A stretch of 37,893 nt of DNA from Prevotella sp. (GTDB lineage: Bacteria > Bacteroidota > Bacteroidia > Bacteroidales > Bacteroidaceae): NCBI GenBank assembly GCA_017650905.1, contig JAGCDZ010000056.1:1-37893 (forward strand), written 5' to 3'. The position numbers and the translations under genes are program-made. The notes under the pieces were generated by a model. The model was given only the letters and a program-made list of their open reading frames with translations. It made no database searches and was not told the origin of the DNA. This document shows positions 2,833-18,106 of this stretch, piece by piece (position 1 is the stretch's first letter; each line of letters opens with the position of its first letter).

Positions 2833-4170
2833 CTAAACTCCAGTAAACTTGCCAACGAAGAGGATAACGCCAGATGAGGCTTCGCGGATGACATAGACGA
2901 AGGGACGATTGGCGTGGAAGCTGGCCTTGGGATATTCTATTGGCTGAGAAATAGCAGACTTTTCCATCATGCCAGCCACAGTGATAGCAGCGGCTTCAGA
3001 GCCTTCCTCGTTGACTTTGATCTTCGCCTTCTGGCGCATCATGGCGATATAGACAGGCGCTTCGCACATATTAGGGATTTCTGCTAAATAAGAGTTGAAA
3101 GCCAGTTTGATGCCCATCTTCTGCATCAGTCCTGCAAGACCATCATTAATGTCAAGTTCATCAGTATCTGAACTTGTCTCAAAACGTGGCAACTTTATGT
3201 CTACCTCGTAAGGACGGGCTTCGTTCATGGGTAGAAAGACATCGAACCATTTATTGTCCATTGGATAATACTGTGCCATGCCTAAATCAGCCATATAATT
3301 TATGATGTCATCTGTAGTTTTTCCTTCTTCTGGCAGTATGATCGTCATATTCCAATAGCCGTTGCCATAGGGCATCTCAACAGCAGCATAAATATCGTTT
3401 TTCAAGTATCTGATAAGCACATTCTGGTGCATCAGGGGTAGTTTGGTCTTGCCTTTATCAGTGGAAAAGGTCTCTTCCTTGGTGTTCTTCTGGTCGAACT
3501 TCGAAGCCCAGTCGGCTTTGAAGTAGATGGCATTAAGCAGATACGACATCATCGCAGGATCAACCTCATCGAGGATGGTGGGAATCATGCCGTTGGTCTT
3601 CTCGTTGCACCAGCCGTTGATATGGCCAAGTGTCTGTGGCGACGAGAAGTCGAGTGACTCAGCCTTCGCATCATAATAAGTCTGTGTATCCTGCTCAAAC
3701 TGAGGCTTCAGGGTATAGTCCTTATTCACAAAGATGGCATTAGCGATGTTCAGCGTCACCTTGTCATCCACCTTGGGCAGACCATCAATCAGTTTCTTGC
3801 AGTAATCATTCACCGCCTTGATGCCTCCCTCATGGAAGCCTAAGGTCTGCTCCAATTCCTTCTCTGTCTCTCCCTCAGCTGCATCGTTCACCATGCCTAA
3901 AACGTAGGTAATGCTCAGTGGCGAGTAGATGAAACTCTTGCCGCTTTGGTCTACATCATTCACCGTCTTCAGGAAGTTCAGTGTAAACTGGTTGTTGTCG
4001 TTGGCAAAGACTCTCTGCGCCTCTGTCAACTGTATCGGCTGTGCCTCCGACAACATATTCACCACTTGCTTGGCCTCACCCAAGTCCTCCTCAACATCTG
4101 ATGATGAGGAACACGACAGCATTGAACAGTTCAGCACTACGGCTGCCAACCAAAATAGATTCTTCTTCAT
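2833..4170 (-). CDS. Serpin-family protease inhibitor, lipoprotein
   Basis: A surface or periplasmic serine- or cysteine-protease inhibitor. The 445-aa protein starts with a lipoprotein signal peptide ending near Leu-Ser-Cys, so it should be lipid-anchored. The serpin signature FHANRPFVYVI is at about residues 418-428. The reactive-loop hinge is of the inhibitory type: Glu388, Gly390, Ser391, Glu392, then three Ala. Counting from the hinge puts P1 at Lys404 and P1' at Ser405, which predicts inhibition of trypsin-like proteases. Miropin of Tannerella forsythia is a known Bacteroidota relative. It begins 24 nt after the lipoprotein gene at 4195-4977, so the two are probably one operon. The pair is flanked by the two copies of the rnc 3' end. 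Confidence 0.93.
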   Translation of the reverse strand: MKKNLFWLAAVVLNCSMLSCSSSSDVEEDLGEAKQVVNMLSEAQPIQLTEAQRVFANDNNQFTLNFLKTVNDVDQSGKSFIYSPLSITYVLGMVNDAAEGETEKELEQTLGFHEGGIKAVNDYCKKLIDGLPKVDDKVTLNIANAIFVNKDYTLKPQFEQDTQTYYDAKAESLDFSSPQTLGHINGWCNEKTNGMIPTILDEVDPAMMSYLLNAIYFKADWASKFDQKNTKEETFSTDKGKTKLPLMHQNVLIRYLKNDIYAAVEMPYGNGYWNMTIILPEEGKTTDDIINYMADLGMAQYYPMDNKWFDVFLPMNEARPYEVDIKLPRFETSSDTDELDINDGLAGLMQKMGIKLAFNSYLAEIPNMCEAPVYIAMMRQKAKIKVNEEGSEAAAITVAGMMEKSAISQPIEYPKASFHANRPFVYVIREASSGVILFVGKFTGV

Positions 4171-10822: not shown

Positions 10823-10846
10823 CATAAAGTGATAATAAGATTAAAA

Positions 10847-11662
10847 ATGAATATGACAATGAAAAGAATCGTAATTTACCTCTTTGCCCTTATGCCTTTG
10901 ATGGCTCATGCGCAGTGTGGCATTGAGAATACATCCTTTAAGTCAGGAGAGGTGCTGGAATATGACCTTAAGTTCAATTGGAAACTTATTTGGTTTACGG
11001 TAGGTACCGCAACGATGGACACCAAGATGACGAAGTTTGAAGGCAAGGATGCATGGCGTTCATATCTGATAACGAGAGGTAACAATACCCTCGACAAGTA
11101 TTTCACGATGCGTGACACCTTGCTTAGTTATTGTAATCCGGATCTTTCACCTCTTTATTTCCGTAAAGGAGCCCGTGAGGGAAGCCGTTACTATGTCGAT
11201 GAGGTGTGGTATTCTTATCCAGGTGGCAACTGTCAGTTGAAGAAGCATCGTATCGATGCCGATGGTGAGGTGCATTGGAAGACGAGTACCTACAAGAACT
11301 GTATCTACGACATGATGTCGATCTTCCTTCGTGCCCGCAATTTCGATGCATCGAAACTGAAGAAGGGTGAGGTCATTCCCATGCCTATCAGTGATGCTCG
11401 TCGTCTGTCAAACTCATGGTTGAGCTATCGTGGTAAGACCAATTACAAAATGGACAGCACCAAGGAGAAATTCCGCTGTCTGGTCTTCTCGTTCTGGGAG
11501 AACGAGGACGGTAAGAGTCATGAACTGATTCGCTTTTATGTGACAGACGATCAGAACCACATTCCCGTGCGTCTTGACATGTTCCTCAGTTTCGGTTCTG
11601 CCAAGGCCTTCCTCAAGAGTTATAAAGGGGTACGTGGTCCGATGACATCGAAAGTCAATTAA
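10847..11662 (+). CDS. DUF3108 domain-containing exported protein
   Basis: A predicted periplasmic protein of about 270 aa with a signal peptide (MKRIVIYLFALMPLMAHA then Gln-Cys). The phrase GEVLEYDLKFNW followed by GTATM at the mature N-terminus is typical of DUF3108. The function is unknown. The start is uncertain: a GTG at 10829 and ATGs at 10847, 10853 and 10859 are all in frame, and the last gives the most compact signal peptide. It follows the Ig-like lipoprotein by about 25 nt and is probably in the same operon. Its stop overlaps, on the opposite strand, the stop of the peptide gene at 11659-11778. Confidence 0.8.
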   Translation: MNMTMKRIVIYLFALMPLMAHAQCGIENTSFKSGEVLEYDLKFNWKLIWFTVGTATMDTKMTKFEGKDAWRSYLITRGNNTLDKYFTMRDTLLSYCNPDLSPLYFRKGAREGSRYYVDEVWYSYPGGNCQLKKHRIDADGEVHWKTSTYKNCIYDMMSIFLRARNFDASKLKKGEVIPMPISDARRLSNSWLSYRGKTNYKMDSTKEKFRCLVFSFWENEDGKSHELIRFYVTDDQNHIPVRLDMFLSFGSAKAFLKSYKGVRGPMTSKVN

Positions 11663-11778
11663 TCATTATAGTGGTGGGCCTGGTTCATGCCTCCCGTCAC
11701 TCTTGATAATTCATCCAAACTGAGCGGGCGTCGTTCTGGCGTCAGCTCTTTTTTGTTCTTTTGGGTATCTTTACTCAT
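11659..11778 (-). CDS. Putative double-glycine-leader peptide precursor (39 aa)
   Basis: A 39-codon ORF, too short for routine gene calling, 12 nt after the stop of the second ABC exporter and on the same strand. The N-terminal 17 residues are charged (Lys/Glu/Arg-rich). Residues 18-30 read PLSLDELSRVTGG, a textbook C39-peptidase leader end: Leu and Glu at the expected spacing, a hydrophobic Val at -4 and Gly-Gly at -2/-1. Residues 31-39, MNQAHHYND, would be the released product, only nine residues long with a His-His-Tyr centre. No Cys is present and no modification enzyme is nearby. The C39 exporter two genes upstream is the obvious processing partner. The ORF is directly visible; cleavage and export are inferred. 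Confidence 0.75.
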   Translation of the reverse strand: MSKDTQKNKKELTPERRPLSLDELSRVTGGMNQAHHYND

Positions 11779-11790
11779 CCTATCTTTGAT

Positions 11791-13959
11791 TTATAATTGG
11801 CGTATTGATAATTCATAGAAAAGTCCCTTGCGTGCCATTAGTTCTTCGTAAGTTCCCTGTTCGGCAATCTTACCTTTATCGAGTACAATGATACGATCGC
11901 AATGGCGAATGGTGGACAAACGTTGGGCAATGACGACACGGGTGCAGTGAAGCCGGTCGAGATTTTCACTGACCTGTTTCTGCGAGATATTATCGAGTGC
12001 AGATGTGGCCTCGTCGAAGAAGATGATGTCAGGCTTGGATATCAGTGCCCTGGCGATGAGAATGCGCTGCTTCTGACCGCCGCTGAAACCACTGCCGCTT
12101 TCATTGACTAATGTGTTCAAGCCCATAGGCATCCTGCGTACATCCTCCTCAAGACTAGCCATCCGCAAGGCATCCCAGGCATCTTCATGAGTGGCCCATG
12201 GAGCCGTAATGGTGATATTCTGGAACAAATCACCCGTAAAGAGATTGCCACTTTGCAGACAGCAACCTATCTTACGCCGCAAACTGGTCTTGTCAACTTT
12301 AGCCAGGTCGTAGTTATCGTAATAGATACCACCGGAGAGCGGTTGTTCAAAGCCTAACAACAGGCGCATGAACGTAGACTTACCACTTCCTGATTTGCCA
12401 ACAAGGCCTACATACTCGCCAGGCTCTATGCGTAACGATAGATTATCGAGCACCAGAGGCCCTTCTTCTTCATAGCGGAAACTTAGTCCGCTTACATCAA
12501 TGCCACCCAACAGGTCTTCTACTTGTGGGGCTTTGGCTTCCATTTCAGGAACAGCTTCCAGAATAGGTTTCACAGATCTCAAAAGGGGCTTTATCCTGGC
12601 CAATGAAGGTACTACATTTTTCATCTCTGCCATAGCTGCCGTCATCATACCGAATGCAGAACTGAAGGCGATATAGTCTGACGGGGCAATGTTGTTGGAT
12701 AAGGTAGACCAGAAGATGAGCATGGTGCCTCCGATACTGAGGAAAGCTGTCAGAGCAGTATATAAGCGGGAGATAAAGGCAGGATTATAGAGCGGTTTCG
12801 CCTGGTCTGTATAATGGTCAAGCCATCTGGTAAACGCACGGTTCTCAGAACCTGTCAGTTTGATTTTCTGAATACCGGCAAACATATTATATTCCAGACC
12901 ACTGAGCTTGGTGGCCTTTTCTGTGTACATGGTTTGAATTCTGACCGTACGCCTGTATACCAGTACAAGGATTAAGACCTGAAGGGCGAGAATGCCAAGG
13001 GCTGGGAAGAGCAGATACTTTCCGTATATCCACAATTGCATGAGGTAAATCAGAGAAAGAACAGCTGAAAGACCTGCACCAATAATGGTTTCATTGATCA
13101 TGCCAGAAAGCACAGATACATTATTCAATTTAGCACTCAGTTCACCGCTCGCATGTTTTGAGAAGAAAGTAGGCGAGAGCAAGAAGGTGCGTGCCATGAT
13201 AGAGTTTTGGGTGTGAAGGTCTACGATATGCTGTACACGCGTGATGTAGAGATTGCGGGTGAGTGTGAGCAACATTGTACCGACGGTGGCACCTAGCAAC
13301 AATCCCGTGATAGGCAATAGATCGGAAGAGTCGCCGGTTGGAATCACCGTGTCGAAAATGAGTTTGTTGGCCATCGGGGTAAACATACCCAGCAAAACCA
13401 CGACGAGGGCCGCCAGACAGAGCATCGAAGCATTGGGCCCGGAGACCACATCCCAGGCAAAATTAATAAGATCTTTGATGTCTAGGGCACGTAGCGGCAA
13501 GGGTTTGGTAAACTGAATGGCCGTAGGCTTCAGTTCGTGTTCCATCTCCTTCTTGTTGATAGTCCTTATAATACCGTTATGGTCACGATAATAATAGCCC
13601 AATCCACTACTGGTAGGTATTAGTGCCAACAACTGACCATCTTTGGCATAGCCAAGTAGGGGACCGACACATTCGTGCCACCATTCACCAATCAGTCGGA
13701 TACGGCGCATAAGGATACCACGGGGCCGAAGAATACCCATTAGCTGCTCCTCTGGAGAGAAGATATCATTTTCCTCCAAGTCGTAGTCCTTGATGTCTAA
13801 GGCATCGAGCAATTGTCTGAGTGCCGATTGGCTCGTCTGGGGAATTGCCCTTTTCTTGCGCAAGAATCCTAATCTTTGGGCACCACGGTCCAAAGCTTCT
13901 GCAAGGAGGGTTTTCTCCAGTTGCTTTCGTTTGTTGATCTGTTTAATATAGATGGCCAT
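11791..13959 (-). CDS. NHLP-type bacteriocin export ABC transporter, permease/ATPase without peptidase
   Basis: The second half-exporter of a peptide export system, 722 aa. Residues 1-160 form a soluble N-terminal domain without a C39 catalytic Cys. About five transmembrane segments follow, then an ATPase domain: Walker A GKSGSGKST, signature FSGGQKQR, Walker B IIFFDEATSALD. The switch (H-loop) position reads VIAQRLSTI: Gln (codon at 11923-11925) replaces the usual His, so one ATP site may be degenerate if it pairs with the C39 exporter. The gene starts 2 nt after the stop of that exporter and ends 12 nt before the peptide ORF. The overall architecture matches the permease/ATPase subunit of NHLM/NHLP clusters. 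Confidence 0.88.
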   Translation of the reverse strand: MAIYIKQINKRKQLEKTLLAEALDRGAQRLGFLRKKRAIPQTSQSALRQLLDALDIKDYDLEENDIFSPEEQLMGILRPRGILMRRIRLIGEWWHECVGPLLGYAKDGQLLALIPTSSGLGYYYRDHNGIIRTINKKEMEHELKPTAIQFTKPLPLRALDIKDLINFAWDVVSGPNASMLCLAALVVVLLGMFTPMANKLIFDTVIPTGDSSDLLPITGLLLGATVGTMLLTLTRNLYITRVQHIVDLHTQNSIMARTFLLSPTFFSKHASGELSAKLNNVSVLSGMINETIIGAGLSAVLSLIYLMQLWIYGKYLLFPALGILALQVLILVLVYRRTVRIQTMYTEKATKLSGLEYNMFAGIQKIKLTGSENRAFTRWLDHYTDQAKPLYNPAFISRLYTALTAFLSIGGTMLIFWSTLSNNIAPSDYIAFSSAFGMMTAAMAEMKNVVPSLARIKPLLRSVKPILEAVPEMEAKAPQVEDLLGGIDVSGLSFRYEEEGPLVLDNLSLRIEPGEYVGLVGKSGSGKSTFMRLLLGFEQPLSGGIYYDNYDLAKVDKTSLRRKIGCCLQSGNLFTGDLFQNITITAPWATHEDAWDALRMASLEEDVRRMPMGLNTLVNESGSGFSGGQKQRILIARALISKPDIIFFDEATSALDNISQKQVSENLDRLHCTRVVIAQRLSTIRHCDRIIVLDKGKIAEQGTYEELMARKGLFYELSIRQL

Positions 13960-13961
13960 GG

Positions 13962-16094
13962 CTATTCACTTCTCATTAAATCTCTGTAAAGTCCTTCCTG
14001 TTCTATCAGTTGGTCGTGGGTGCCGCGCTGCAGGATTTTCCCTTGGTCCATGACGAGTATTTCGTCACAGTCACGGATAGTTGAGAGACGGTGGGCAATA
14101 ATAATCTGTGTGGGTCCCATCATCCGAATCGCGGCCATTACCTCATCCTCAGTTTTCGGATCAAGGGCAGAAGTGGCCTCGTCCATGATTAGCACGGCAG
14201 GTTCCTTGGCTAAGGCAGTAGCAATTTCCATTCTCTGGCGCTGACCACCAGAGAAGTTTTGTCCGCCTCTGACGAGTATTGTTCCGAAACCATCAGGACG
14301 ACTGACGATGTCATCACGTATCTGGGCATCGTTACAAGCCATCATCAGGGTAAAGTCTTCAATGCTTTCGTCCCACATGCGGATATTCTGTGCAACGGTA
14401 TCGTCGAAGAGCACCACATTCTGGTCGATGACGGCCACAGAATTTGTCAATTCCTCAGAAGAGATGCTTTCAATGGGTCTTCCATCAAAAAGTATTTCTC
14501 CTGACCAAGGCTTGTATAAGCCAGAAATAAGTTTGGCAAGTGTCGATTTTCCACAACCGCTGCTACCCACGAAGGCCACACTGCGGCCTGGTTCTATTCG
14601 CAAGTTGAAGTTCTCGATGAGTGGAGGCAGCAGGGTAGAATACCCAAAGGTGACGTTTTTGAGTTCCACAAGTCCACCCAATTTGCCCTCATACATGTCG
14701 CCCTCATTCTCACGATGGTCTTCTGGAAATTTCATCACATCTTCGATGCGCTCCATCTGACTGCGCATCACCACGATGTTCTTTGAAGCGTTGACGATGT
14801 CATTGACTGGTGAAAGAAACGACGACATGAAACCCTGGAAGGCCAGGAGCATACCCACAGACAGTTCGCCTTTCAGAATGAGCAGAGCACCAAGTACAAG
14901 AATGGTGGTGTTGACCAGTCCGTTCACGAGAATAGGTAGTAGTCCCATCTTCAGTTGTTGGTCTGTGGCATTACCTTCCATATTGAATTTCTTGGCCCAA
15001 AGACCACTCCAGTATTCAAAGAAACCAGTTTCAGCGCCGGCAGCCTTGATACTTTCCATGTTGTCTATACAAGATACGGTCGCTGAGAAATATTTGCCTG
15101 TGCTCTGTTCCATCGAATGGATGAGATTGATGCGTTGAGCAGAATGGTATTGTACGATGACCAGATTGACCACAGCAGCAATGATGCCTACCAAAGTCAG
15201 TGTCACCGAATAGCTGAGCATCAGGGCGAGATAGAGTCCGAGTAAGGCGATGTTGATGATTTGTGGAGCCAGCACTTCCACGAGCGAGTGGGTAATAGTC
15301 TCATTCAGGTGCTGACGCTGCTGTAGCTCACCCACGCTTCGCATGGCAAAGAATGAAATGGGCAGTCGCAGCACGTGGTTGAGATACTTCACATTTCCTT
15401 TCAGTGCCAGCGATCCTGCTATTCGTTTGGCATAACGTGCCTGTAGTAATACCAGTACAAATTGGAACAAAGCCACCGTTCCCATGAGCAGGAAAAAGGT
15501 AGAACTCCAGTCACGATTCTTGCCTGAAAGAATCTCATCCAGGAACGTACGGGTAAAAAGTGGAATGACGAGTGCAACAAAAGCAGCTAAAAGGGCGAAG
15601 ACAAAGGTGAGCCAGAAAGCCTCGCCTGCGCCTTGCAGGTATTTTCTGACATACGATAAGATACGGGTACGATGTCCGTCTTGTTCAAAGGCCTCCGTTG
15701 GGGCAAATGTCAGTGCCACACCCGTGAAGGATTTCCTGAAATCATCGATGGGAACTTCTACAGGACCAGCATTGGGGTCGTTCAGACAGGCGGCCCCTTT
15801 CTTAAATCCTCTGAAGACGACAAAATGATTAAAGTTCCAATGGATGATAGCGGGCTGCATGCCCTCGAGGGCCTCGGGTGTCACCTGATAACCCTTTGCC
15901 TTTAAGCCGTACTTTTTGGCAGCTAATACAATATCTTTTGCAGAACTGCCATCACGTGAAACGCCACAGGCTGCACGTACCTTTTCCAAGGGCAGCCACT
16001 TGCCGTAATGCGCCAGAATCATTGTCAGTGAGGCAGCGCCACACTCTACAGATTCCATCTGCATTACCATTGGCATTTTCACGACCTTGCTCAT
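13962..16094 (-). CDS. C39 peptidase-containing bacteriocin export ABC transporter (NHLP family)
   Basis: Removes a double-glycine leader and exports the released peptide across the inner membrane. The 710-aa protein has an N-terminal C39 peptidase domain with Gln12 (oxyanion hole), Cys18 (ESVECGAASL), His90 (FNHFVVF) and Asp106 (LNDPN). A six-helix membrane domain (about residues 160-440) and an ATPase follow: Walker A GSSGCGKST, signature FSGGQRQR, Walker B VLIMDEATSALD, and an intact H-loop His (IIIAHRLST). It starts 1 nt after the HlyD-like gene and is followed at once by the second ABC half. The likely local cargo is the 39-aa precursor at 11659-11778. Confidence 0.93.
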   Translation of the reverse strand: MSKVVKMPMVMQMESVECGAASLTMILAHYGKWLPLEKVRAACGVSRDGSSAKDIVLAAKKYGLKAKGYQVTPEALEGMQPAIIHWNFNHFVVFRGFKKGAACLNDPNAGPVEVPIDDFRKSFTGVALTFAPTEAFEQDGHRTRILSYVRKYLQGAGEAFWLTFVFALLAAFVALVIPLFTRTFLDEILSGKNRDWSSTFFLLMGTVALFQFVLVLLQARYAKRIAGSLALKGNVKYLNHVLRLPISFFAMRSVGELQQRQHLNETITHSLVEVLAPQIINIALLGLYLALMLSYSVTLTLVGIIAAVVNLVIVQYHSAQRINLIHSMEQSTGKYFSATVSCIDNMESIKAAGAETGFFEYWSGLWAKKFNMEGNATDQQLKMGLLPILVNGLVNTTILVLGALLILKGELSVGMLLAFQGFMSSFLSPVNDIVNASKNIVVMRSQMERIEDVMKFPEDHRENEGDMYEGKLGGLVELKNVTFGYSTLLPPLIENFNLRIEPGRSVAFVGSSGCGKSTLAKLISGLYKPWSGEILFDGRPIESISSEELTNSVAVIDQNVVLFDDTVAQNIRMWDESIEDFTLMMACNDAQIRDDIVSRPDGFGTILVRGGQNFSGGQRQRMEIATALAKEPAVLIMDEATSALDPKTEDEVMAAIRMMGPTQIIIAHRLSTIRDCDEILVMDQGKILQRGTHDQLIEQEGLYRDLMRSE

Positions 16095-16095
16095 A

Positions 16096-16791
16096 TCAAT
16101 TGCCTGTAGCCGATTCTATTGCATTGTCAACGGCACCGATGAGCACACGCCATACGGGCTTTTGCTGGGTGATGATCTGAATGTTACAAAGTGAACCAGT
16201 ATTTATCTTCAGGCCTTGGCTCTTTTCCCGACTCCATACCAGATGACCATCTTTCTCTTCGAGTATAACGCGTACCTCGTAGATAGCTTCACCATCTTTG
16301 ATGAACGCAGCTAAGGGATCCAACTTCAGCCGTCGTATAACATCTTCCTTAGTGGTTGGATATCGTTCGATTCCCTTCACTGTTCCGTAGGCATAACCCC
16401 AGTTCTCACGCTGCAGGTCAGCGGGTGTGGCCTGTACCTGTTGTTCTGGCTTCAATTTTCTCAGGTCGTTGAAGGTCACATAGCAGAGCATTTCCCGTCC
16501 TTGTGTCTCTGGCATTAACCAAGCTTGTCCATGACTCATCAATACACGGTCGTTGGTTTCGATGAGAGAGTCATTGACTGCTGTCATTTCGCCAAAGGGA
16601 AACACAATGCCTTGGGCTGTCACCTTGTCGTTGATGGTGCCGAAGGCACACCAATAAATGCCCACGGCTACCATAGCTAACATAGCACCTAACACCAATT
16701 TCAGCTTTGGCGAGGCCACACGCGCCATCTCCTCCGCTTCAATTTTGGCATCGATGGCTTCCAAGGCTTCCTTATTGAAAATGTCAGCCAT
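16096..16791 (-). CDS. Short HlyD-like bacteriocin secretion protein (NHLP system adaptor)
   Basis: A predicted periplasmic adaptor of a peptide exporter. The 231-aa protein has a soluble N-terminus, one transmembrane helix at about residues 29-50 (LKLVLGAMLAMVAVGIYWCAF), and then the typical segment GTINDKVTAQGIVFP with a beta-rich domain. It lacks the long coiled-coil arms and lipoyl halves of full HlyD proteins and is short for this group. It might not reach an outer-membrane channel. It starts 8 nt after the STAS gene stop and is 1 nt ahead of the C39 exporter, so they share an operon. Confidence 0.82.
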   Translation of the reverse strand: MADIFNKEALEAIDAKIEAEEMARVASPKLKLVLGAMLAMVAVGIYWCAFGTINDKVTAQGIVFPFGEMTAVNDSLIETNDRVLMSHGQAWLMPETQGREMLCYVTFNDLRKLKPEQQVQATPADLQRENWGYAYGTVKGIERYPTTKEDVIRRLKLDPLAAFIKDGEAIYEVRVILEEKDGHLVWSREKSQGLKINTGSLCNIQIITQQKPVWRVLIGAVDNAIESATGN

Positions 16792-16799
16792 ATTTCTGT

Positions 16800-17102
16800 T
16801 TATTGTTCAATGGTGATAATACGGGTAAAGCCGGTCATGTGAAAGATCTTGAAGATAGGGGCACTTACATGCGTCAACTTAATCTGTCCGTCGAGCTTAC
16901 GGGTCACGATGCGCATCATCTCTTGAATGACACGAAGACCAGAACTTGAGATGTATTGCAAGTCTGTGCAATCAAACTCCAGGTCTATGCCCTTTTCCAG
17001 CACAGCCTCTACCTCACGCTCAAATTGTGTGGCATTCAGGGTATCCACGCGTTCTCCGGTTTTTACAATGGTCTTTCCACCTTCTTTTTTAATCTGTGTC
17101 AT
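16800..17102 (-). CDS. STAS-domain anti-sigma factor antagonist-like protein
   Basis: A single STAS domain of 100 aa. The motif YISSSGLRVI (residues 50-59) aligns with the SpoIIAA phosphorylation site, so Ser54 is the likely switch residue. In known systems such proteins bind an anti-sigma kinase and are controlled by PP2C phosphatases. Neither partner gene is present in this window. It is 8 nt ahead of the HlyD-like gene, within the peptide-export operon. That links export to partner-switching or to a structural role at the membrane; which one is unknown. Confidence 0.88.
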   Translation of the reverse strand: MTQIKKEGGKTIVKTGERVDTLNATQFEREVEAVLEKGIDLEFDCTDLQYISSSGLRVIQEMMRIVTRKLDGQIKLTHVSAPIFKIFHMTGFTRIITIEQ

Positions 17103-17134: not shown

Positions 17135-18106
17135 TTATAATATTTCATCAAAGGGGGTTGCGTTCACGCAGCGCAGGTTCTTTTCCAACTGGGCCGTACT
17201 GCTGGCACCTACCAGTACCGATGTGACACCCTTTTGATGGAGAATCCAGGCTAAGGCCATCTCTGCCAGCGTCTCCCCACGGTTCTGCGCCACCTCATTA
17301 TAATGGCGTAACTTTGCAAGCAATTCTGGTGTGAGCATGTCCTCTGTCAAGAATTTACCTTTCGACATACGAGAGTCCTGAGGGATGCCGTTTAGATAGC
17401 GGTCTGTCAGCAATCCTTGTGCCAAAGGAGAGAAGGAGATAAAACCGATGCCTTCCTCTGCGCAGAAATCGAGAATACCCTCTTCCTGCGGCTCACGGTC
17501 AAGCATGTTCAGTTTTCCTTGATAGATGAGCAGAGGCACGTCGCGCTCCTTCAGATATTTCGCAGCAAAACGCGTAGCTTCCAGCGGCCAACGGGAAATG
17601 CCGACATAGAGTGCCTTACCGGCTCGCACAATATCCACCAGGGCTTGGAGAGTTTCTTCCAAAGGCGTCACAGGATCGTAGCGATGGCTATAGAACAGGT
17701 CGACATAGTCGATTTTCATTCGTTTCAGACTCTGATCCAACGAGGCGATAAGGTATTTGCGTGAGCCCCAGTCGCCGTAAGGACCAGGCCACATGTCATA
17801 GCCGGCCTTCGACGAGATAAAAAGTTCATCGCGATACGGACGGAAATCCTCATCCATCAGTTTTCCCATGGTCTCTTCAGCAGAGCCATAGACGGGACCA
17901 TAGTTGTTGGCCAGGTCGAAATGGGTGATGCCATGATCAAAGGCATAATGGGTTATCTCACGACTGCGTTCGTAAGGGTCGACACTACCGAAATTATGCC
18001 AGAAGCCGAGGCTTACCTTGGGTAGCAACACTCCCGATCGCCCACAGCGTTCATATTCCATTCCGTTGCAGTAACGGTCTTTGTTAGCGTAATACAGTTC
18101 TTTCAT
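17135..18106 (-). CDS. Aldo/keto reductase, YghZ/L-glyceraldehyde-3-phosphate reductase-like
   Basis: An NADPH-dependent aldehyde or ketone reductase of 323 aa. The frame is open upstream, but the ATG at 18106 is chosen because the promoter (18123-18130) lies within the longer form and the family N-terminus starts there. Conserved residues include Asp and Tyr in FDLANNYG, Lys in ISSKAGYD and His in FYSHRYD. The phrases GYDMWPGPYGDWGSRKYL and LDQSLKRM are typical of the YghZ subfamily. It is the first gene of a minus-strand run, 32 nt ahead of the STAS gene, and no promoter is seen between them, so it may drive the peptide-export genes. Confidence 0.9.
   Translation of the reverse strand: MKELYYANKDRYCNGMEYERCGRSGVLLPKVSLGFWHNFGSVDPYERSREITHYAFDHGITHFDLANNYGPVYGSAEETMGKLMDEDFRPYRDELFISSKAGYDMWPGPYGDWGSRKYLIASLDQSLKRMKIDYVDLFYSHRYDPVTPLEETLQALVDIVRAGKALYVGISRWPLEATRFAAKYLKERDVPLLIYQGKLNMLDREPQEEGILDFCAEEGIGFISFSPLAQGLLTDRYLNGIPQDSRMSKGKFLTEDMLTPELLAKLRHYNEVAQNRGETLAEMALAWILHQKGVTSVLVGASSTAQLEKNLRCVNATPFDEIL

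Follow-up and report, generated by a model that had tools for sequence, protein, structure and literature searches.

The window that we analyzed, a 37,893-nucleotide stretch of DNA from a rumen-type Prevotella, contains a 39-amino acid double-glycine precursor ORF (11659..11778, minus strand, stop codon included) directly behind the genes of a C39 peptidase-containing exporter. Judged by its sequence, this ORF is a genuine double-glycine precursor gene that is conserved in its clade. We propose that it probably encodes a mini-precursor that is driven by its leader and tolerant of cargo, for a reduced exporter of the NHLM type whose operon also carries a partner-switch (STAS) gene. The alternative readings that we weigh below overlap with this one, and the likelihoods that we assign to them need not sum to one.

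A first-pass annotation of the same DNA had reported a 39-codon double-glycine ORF directly behind the second ABC gene (ABC2), and we found that this ORF is real. Read from 11778 to 11659 on the minus strand, it starts 12 bp after the ABC2 stop codon, overlaps the stop of a convergent DUF3108 gene by 4 bp, and translates as the leader MSKDTQKNKKELTPERRPLSLDELSRVTGG followed by the tail MNQAHHYND. The leader spans 30 codons (11689..11778, minus strand) and has the form ...L(-12)SLDE(-8)L(-7)SRV(-4)TGG, with L-12, E-8, L-7, V-4 and GG before the predicted cleavage site. The available part of PMC6959990 gives L-12, E-8, L-7, G-2 and G-1 as the double-glycine leader consensus of C39 substrates; the window leader has each of these residues, as expected of the textbook C39 leader that the annotation had recognized, and we predict that it is the module for docking and cleavage. 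A strict filter for double-glycine leaders retained one ORF in the window; across 200 dinucleotide shuffles the average was 0.005 (a match in 1 of 200 shuffled windows). Given this control and a GG ORF at the same position in 8 of 8 orthologous loci, we rejected a chance ORF as an explanation.

These orthologous loci came from ABC2 searches of 150 and then 398 genus genomes, drawn from the larger genus, and of the GTDB contig collection, from which the best 80 matches were used. The resulting set contains at least eight distinct loci with an ABC2 at least 80% identical to that of the window (the window, L037, L038, L039, L057, L058, L059 and L150); L058/L151/L137 are one contig, as are L059/L138, and each was counted once. 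Among the matches listed, a GG ORF lies 9-13 bp behind ABC2 in all eight distinct loci, and it was neither absent nor frameshifted in any of the eight that keep the transporter, the outcome on which the annotation had staked its claim. The orthologous leaders have a hydrophobic residue (L or I) at -12, L-7 and V-4 in 8 of 8 loci and E-8 in 5 of 8, and none contains a frameshift or stop; the hydrophobic positions and the GG are retained throughout. The ORF, its leader, the synteny and this pattern of conservation were observed directly. Leader dN/dS was 0.17-0.67 (10 of 10 pairs among the five closest orthologues), as compared to 0.018-0.079 for the transporter, adaptor and STAS genes of the five closest loci. 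When the 39-mer itself was used as query, it matched in 3 of 150 genomes, a number that is small because leader and tail diverge fast. The window peptide matched no NCBIfam family at E<=0.1, including the NHLP (TIGR03793) and Nif11-like (TIGR03798) precursor models, and no Pfam model, which counts against the precursor reading. The leader, the position and the orthologues support the view that the ORF is a genuine double-glycine precursor beside its likely C39 exporter.

The predicted nine-residue tail, MNQAHHYND (11662..11688, minus strand), is not conserved among the orthologue sequences. Seven different tails occur in the eight loci: MNQAHHYND, VNQARHQD, VTAPSMSSENVPPYSSSRKP, VTALSTTSDHEPPYNS, VTAPSTSSGHVHPYNSSKKP, VHKNRPQP (common to the close pair L058 and L059) and IHGYSVGKRGKNAN. 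The annotation had asked whether an alignment of related ORFs would find the leader and the last nine residues conserved; the leader was, and the tails were variable. The relative with 95% ABC2 identity has the tail VNQARHQD, and the tails of the other loci are unrelated. The DUF3108 gene that converges on the precursor (10829..11662, plus strand, PF11306) accounts for some of this variation. In the window, 26 bases separate the GG codons from the opposite-strand DUF3108 stop; the distance is 30 bases in L037 and 1 base in each of L038, L057 and L150. In the latter three loci, the ORF enters the DUF3108 gene in antisense; all five closest loci have an intact DUF3108 C-terminus of almost the same sequence, and therefore the "product" in these three is simply the antisense of the neighboring gene. 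Compared pairwise, the tails of L038, L057 and L150 differ by 0-0.5 synonymous and 5-7 non-synonymous changes, which is what selection on the antisense DUF3108 frame would produce. The outgroup loci L039, L058 and L059 keep 27-37 bases and a separate tail, and one or several deletions therefore probably gave rise to the short gap; a protein tree left the branching order of L038, L057 and L150 unsettled.

These data bear on the function that the annotation had assigned to MNQAHHYND, which it read as a dedicated signal or metal-binding nonapeptide. A short, unmodified tail behind a canonical leader within an exporter operon fits that reading, but the His-His-Tyr motif occurs in the window only, is missing from the 95%-identical relative and is absent from all others of the eight loci, three tails are antisense sequence, and we recognized no receptor gene in the window operon. 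A conserved His-His-Tyr metal site was thus rejected, given that the motif is absent from the orthologue tails. A fixed signal or metal-binding peptide is probably not what the nine residues represent, and we consider a dedicated role for them very unlikely. Taken as a whole, the interpretation offered by the annotation is partly supported.

The gene order on the minus strand of the window is aldo/keto reductase, STAS, HlyD-like, C39-ABC, ABC2 and the 39-codon ORF; NCBIfam and Pfam scans bore out the STAS, HlyD-like and ABC neighbors named by the annotation. ABC2 (11791..13959, minus strand, 722 aa) is a permease/ATPase without a peptidase, and its residues 65-722 match TIGR03797, its best NCBIfam model, at 674.9 bits, below the cut-off of 709.4. 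ABC1 (13962..16094, minus strand, 710 aa) has C39 peptidase, permease and ATPase parts and is the sole exporter component above a curated cut-off (TIGR03796, 876.8 bits against 853.3); its PF03412 match is also over cut-off. Residues 8-706 of ABC1 match the solved exporter 4ry2/4s0f, an "ABC-type bacteriocin transporter", of which 4s0f is PCAT1 (PMC6959990, as far as its available text goes); the higher-scoring structures were P-glycoproteins, matched in the ABC part only. The HlyD-like adaptor (16096..16791, minus strand, 231 aa) scored 81.6 bits against its best model, TIGR03794, below the cut-off of 156.2. The STAS protein (16800..17102, minus strand, 100 aa) is of the anti-sigma-antagonist type (PF01740, 51.6 bits; TIGR00377, 58.6 over 53.45), and the aldo/keto reductase (17135..18106, minus strand, PF00248, start codon chosen by eye) is, by synteny, a conserved upstream neighbor in the clade. 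As the annotation had stated, no modification enzyme was seen: apart from the peptide, six proteins of the operon and its flanks were scanned, none of this kind, and the remaining window was read by eye.

The annotation had further described a complete export unit, a description that we find too strong. In each of the 9 window-clade loci that were aligned with fuller loci (L085 included), ~50 adaptor residues are missing, and the rest of the adaptor is well conserved; the adaptor of a fuller locus in the same genome, L003, has 278 aa. By its position and sequence, we take the missing segment to be the lipoyl-like barrel. Neither the short nor the fuller form of the adaptor had a match in Pfam, and no homologue of the L003 TolC was found within 8 kb in the nine window-clade loci. 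On this gene content, the exporter is NHLM-type and reduced, and not a complete export unit.

With its PF01740 match, the STAS gene represents the antagonist of an Rsb-type partner switch in the window operon; an RsbW kinase and a SpoIIE phosphatase were both absent from the operon, and proteins of both types are encoded elsewhere in the genome. An RsbW homologue is present in 3 of 8 orthologues, adjoining STAS in L039 and fused to STAS in one frame in L058 (6375-7124) and L059 (2078-2836), where the fusion lies in a window-type operon; it is not in the operon in the other five. The window genome contains 12 SpoIIE, 6 STAS and 10 HATPase_c_2 matches (5 of these 10 over cut-off), and with so many such genes a partner switch dedicated to the exporter was not supported. 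Of 54 distinct Bacteroidales-type loci with C39, 22 have a STAS, RsbW or SpoIIE homologue within 8 kb, as do 9 of 30 other loci (Firmicutes, Spirochaetes, Acidobacteria); these counts lack a matched control, and weak SpoIIE matches (L057, L073) are among them. MlaB, itself a STAS protein, binds an ABC ATPase. We propose that the STAS protein could place the exporter under partner-switch control, perhaps served in trans by the RsbW- and SpoIIE-type proteins encoded elsewhere in the genome.

The fuller paralogue L003 (contig C22) opens with a GG precursor of 39 aa and, behind it, a stable hairpin (-26.3 kcal/mol, z -4.77). RsbW, STAS, HlyD, C39-ABC and ABC2 come next, and beyond ABC2 lie genes for an NMT1/THI5-like binding protein, a phosphatase of the dCACHE-HAMP-SpoIIE type, a second HlyD and TolC. 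Between L003 and its close relative L040 the hairpin is kept, 2 of 69 leader nucleotides are changed, and the tail between leader and hairpin is scrambled; leader dS is 0.08 (1 change in 13 sites) versus 0.52-1.11 for the operon genes. This combination, with sensor-like genes inside the L003 operon, would suit a special case of our preferred explanation in which the tail is a deliberately variable, lineage-specific recognition peptide, akin to a pherotype, that is sensed outside the cell; the NMT1-type binding protein and dCACHE-SpoIIE of L003 are a possible sensor. The window operon, however, has no sensor gene, and in three orthologues the tail is nothing but DUF3108 antisense, and we regard this special case as rather unlikely. 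The same genome contains a third, distant NHLM-like locus (L056, G000:C107:10500-29500; ABC2 ~40%), in which the first ABC has 576 aa and where a genome-wide C39 search found no peptidase domain.

The L003 precursor also passes TIGR03949 and TIGR01847 through its leader, and when 10 related precursors were compared with NCBIfam, most matches were to bacteriocin-leader models and below threshold, with the L003 precursor alone over cut-offs. An unmodified bacteriocin or microcin is a further reading of the window product, as this leader type is shared with class II bacteriocins. Its tail is nine polar residues, no immunity gene was recognized among the 6 other scanned proteins, and the window peptide has no bacteriocin model match in NCBIfam or Pfam, all of which make such a product extremely improbable.

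The reduced state of the window operon could also mean that the precursor is decaying, the operon having lost its original product, with the leader lingering under weak selection and the exporter kept for other cargo. The adaptor deletion in all nine clade loci, the TolC homologue missing within 8 kb, the position of RsbW outside the operon in 5 of 8 orthologues and the antisense tails in 3 of 8 would all be expected, as would the constraint on the leader (dN/dS up to 0.67), which is much weaker than that on the transporter. Against this stand the leaders without frameshift or stop in 8 of 8 loci, with their hydrophobic positions and GG retained, and the lack of an obvious other cargo in the genome of the window. 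There, 5 sites matched in a search with a DNA pattern: two are the precursors of the window and L003, and we judged the other three from their frames to be non-precursors. This search, in a genome that is 71.55% complete and with a pattern that covers only E-L/F-x-x-V/A-x-G-G spellings, thus found just one other such leader. We hold decay to be somewhat unlikely.

Precursors with similar leaders elsewhere in Prevotella, in tandem or scattered, fit our preferred reading of a cargo-tolerant mini-precursor. With the L003 precursor as query, matches were found in 11 of 398 genus genomes at E<=0.05, up to 11 per genome. In the fetched stretches, of which one batch was read on the plus strand and another on both strands, GG precursors cluster in sets of 4 to 12 that span a few kilobases and are in part broken up by other genes; many lie on contigs or stretches without an exporter. 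Four copies of one leader type share almost the same DNA from ~30 bp ahead of the start codon through the GG codons and differ in their tails, as if the leader travels as a cassette. Over 101 distinct precursors (106 rows with duplicates collapsed), which are not independent because several come from one genome, tail length has a median of 14 residues and a range of 0-47. Leucine occupies -12 in 87 of the 101, and this position is the only independent check because the expression used for the collection requires hydrophobic -7/-4 and polar -8/-9. The count includes exporter group L081, with long Cys-containing tails, and omits L059 11887-12084, which ends VVGS, not GG; the precursors of L042 and L047 have N-terminal extensions from using the first start codon. 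No modification enzyme was found among 10 flanking proteins of five unlinked-precursor loci (L227, L230, L231, L233, L234).

Most tails of these related precursors are dissimilar, and a few tail families recur. Among unlinked precursors, a GEFTxYDxSxRPR tail is found in four loci of three genomes (L227, L229, L231, L237) and the tail GKAGKVSKKVIK in two genomes (L229 and L239). RPSW tails, of 13 residues (AQxxxRPSWxRxx), are conserved in four distinct loci (L042/L091, L051, L072 and L087) in which the precursor lies directly upstream of the adaptor gene and ABC2 is ~60-66% identical to that of the window. The RPSW tails are an exception to tail variability and suggest a specific product, and the recurring tails of all three families likely matter as such. 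Together with VHKNRPQP, shared by L058 and L059, these conserved tails may serve particular functions, a point that weighs against our preferred reading.

Several precursors depart from the simple arrangement of leader and short tail. By eye, GG precursors in L039 (6705-6905), L061, L069, L152, L154 and L156 have an N-terminal membrane-spanning stretch before the leader, which would leave the leader anchored after cleavage; some are coiled-coil-like in part, and their tails are mostly basic and short. Two successive leader-like GG motifs occur in each of the precursors L043 9795-9962, L044 4542-4715 and L067 3184-3312. In L230, the precursor-type N-termini (MAEDLNK..) of 1976-2836 and 3024-4007 continue without a break into lipoprotein-like proteins, of which the second has leucine-rich repeats, as if a leader had been placed before another gene. 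In L228 (8771-10578), four GG precursors in tandem immediately precede an aldo/keto reductase gene; judged by eye, this reductase is similar to the one that precedes the window operon.

At the other extreme are leaders that have almost no tail. In a sister exporter group (ABC2 ~47%), the precursor ends 0-3 residues after GG in eight distinct loci: there is no residue in L053 and L225, AA in L055, TII in L054/L083, TIL in L082, L224 and L226, and RGV in L222. The adaptor gene follows these leaders in 8 of 8 loci, with some overlapping its start codon. A profile of four tail-less leaders matched in 6 of 398 genomes, at seven places, and 7 of 7 were of the tail-less type. This group favors the idea that a leader can be retained in its own right. 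It also raises a further reading, in which the leader itself is the functional product, a built-in regulator that occupies or gates the exporter, and the tail of the window peptide is irrelevant. We consider this reading because stand-alone leaders resemble the cleavage product of a C39 peptidase, because eight sister-group loci have 0-3 residues after GG with the adaptor gene next, and because three orthologues of the window gene keep the leader while their tail is antisense of a neighbor; nevertheless, we judge it decidedly unlikely for the window gene.

Returning to the mini-precursor as the explanation that we favor, we propose that the precursor is translated for the C39/ABC2 exporter of NHLM type whose genes lie immediately upstream. 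In this scheme the leader would be the constant, selected module, which binds to the C39 domain and is cleaved behind GG, and the residues beyond GG would cross the membrane; we propose these steps because of the leader consensus and because specificity is reported to lie in the leader only in the PCAT1 system (PMC6959990, available part). The tail would then be changeable cargo rather than a fixed bioactive nonapeptide. That of the window may be a lineage-specific peptide or the passenger of a cut-down exporter, a state indicated by the shortened adaptor, the lack of an outer-membrane channel gene and the location of RsbW outside the operon in the window subclade. If this pattern holds, rumen-type Prevotella would combine one exporter type with a reusable leader before many different short tails, a natural, cargo-tolerant form of small-peptide secretion in a major gut genus with no modification enzyme in the scanned flanks. 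It also makes testable whether a C39 exporter needs cargo or whether the leader alone acts on the exporter.

In the open-access papers that we searched, we recognized no account of such a precursor class in Prevotella and no paper linking partner-switch homologues with these exporters. A survey of Bacteroidales RiPPs (PMC10352776) mentions C39 exporters and, in the part of its text available, not NHLM, NHLP or SpoIIE; a survey of a rumen collection (PMC13289728) does not mention NHLM in the part available. The NHLM/NHLP export genes TIGR03794, TIGR03796 and TIGR03797 are described by Haft, Basu and Mitchell (2010, PMC2887384), and there, as in the window, adaptor, C39 ABC and second ABC lie side by side. 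The window C39 ABC is over its cut-off, whereas the ABC2 and the shortened adaptor are below theirs, the precursor matches no NHLP or Nif11 leader model, and the scanned proteins include no TOMM or lanthionine enzyme. PCAT1 is the same kind of C39 exporter with the same L-12, E-8, L-7, GG leader consensus, but PCATs are typically homodimers and the PCAT1 substrate has 90 residues (PMC6959990, available part), compared to a C39 ABC with a second ABC gene and a nine-residue tail in the window. The Bordetella BtrU/BtrV/BtrW partner switch, with its SpoIIE, STAS and kinase proteins, is reported to govern type III secretion (PMC7498569) and is a precedent for such control of a secretion process; that machine is a different one, and the window operon has only the STAS gene. 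Bacteroidetocins (PMC6671954, available part) are also peptides of Bacteroidetes species, but they are toxins related to class IIa bacteriocins, a relation for which the model scans of the window peptide gave no match. The small secreted double-glycine proteins of Synechococcus elongatus (PMC4997328, available part) offer a Gram-negative example with a non-bacteriocin role, in biofilm; they belong to another phylum. In relation to these systems, the export genes are known ones, and the window adds a leader gene that is conserved in its clade and a tail that is not.
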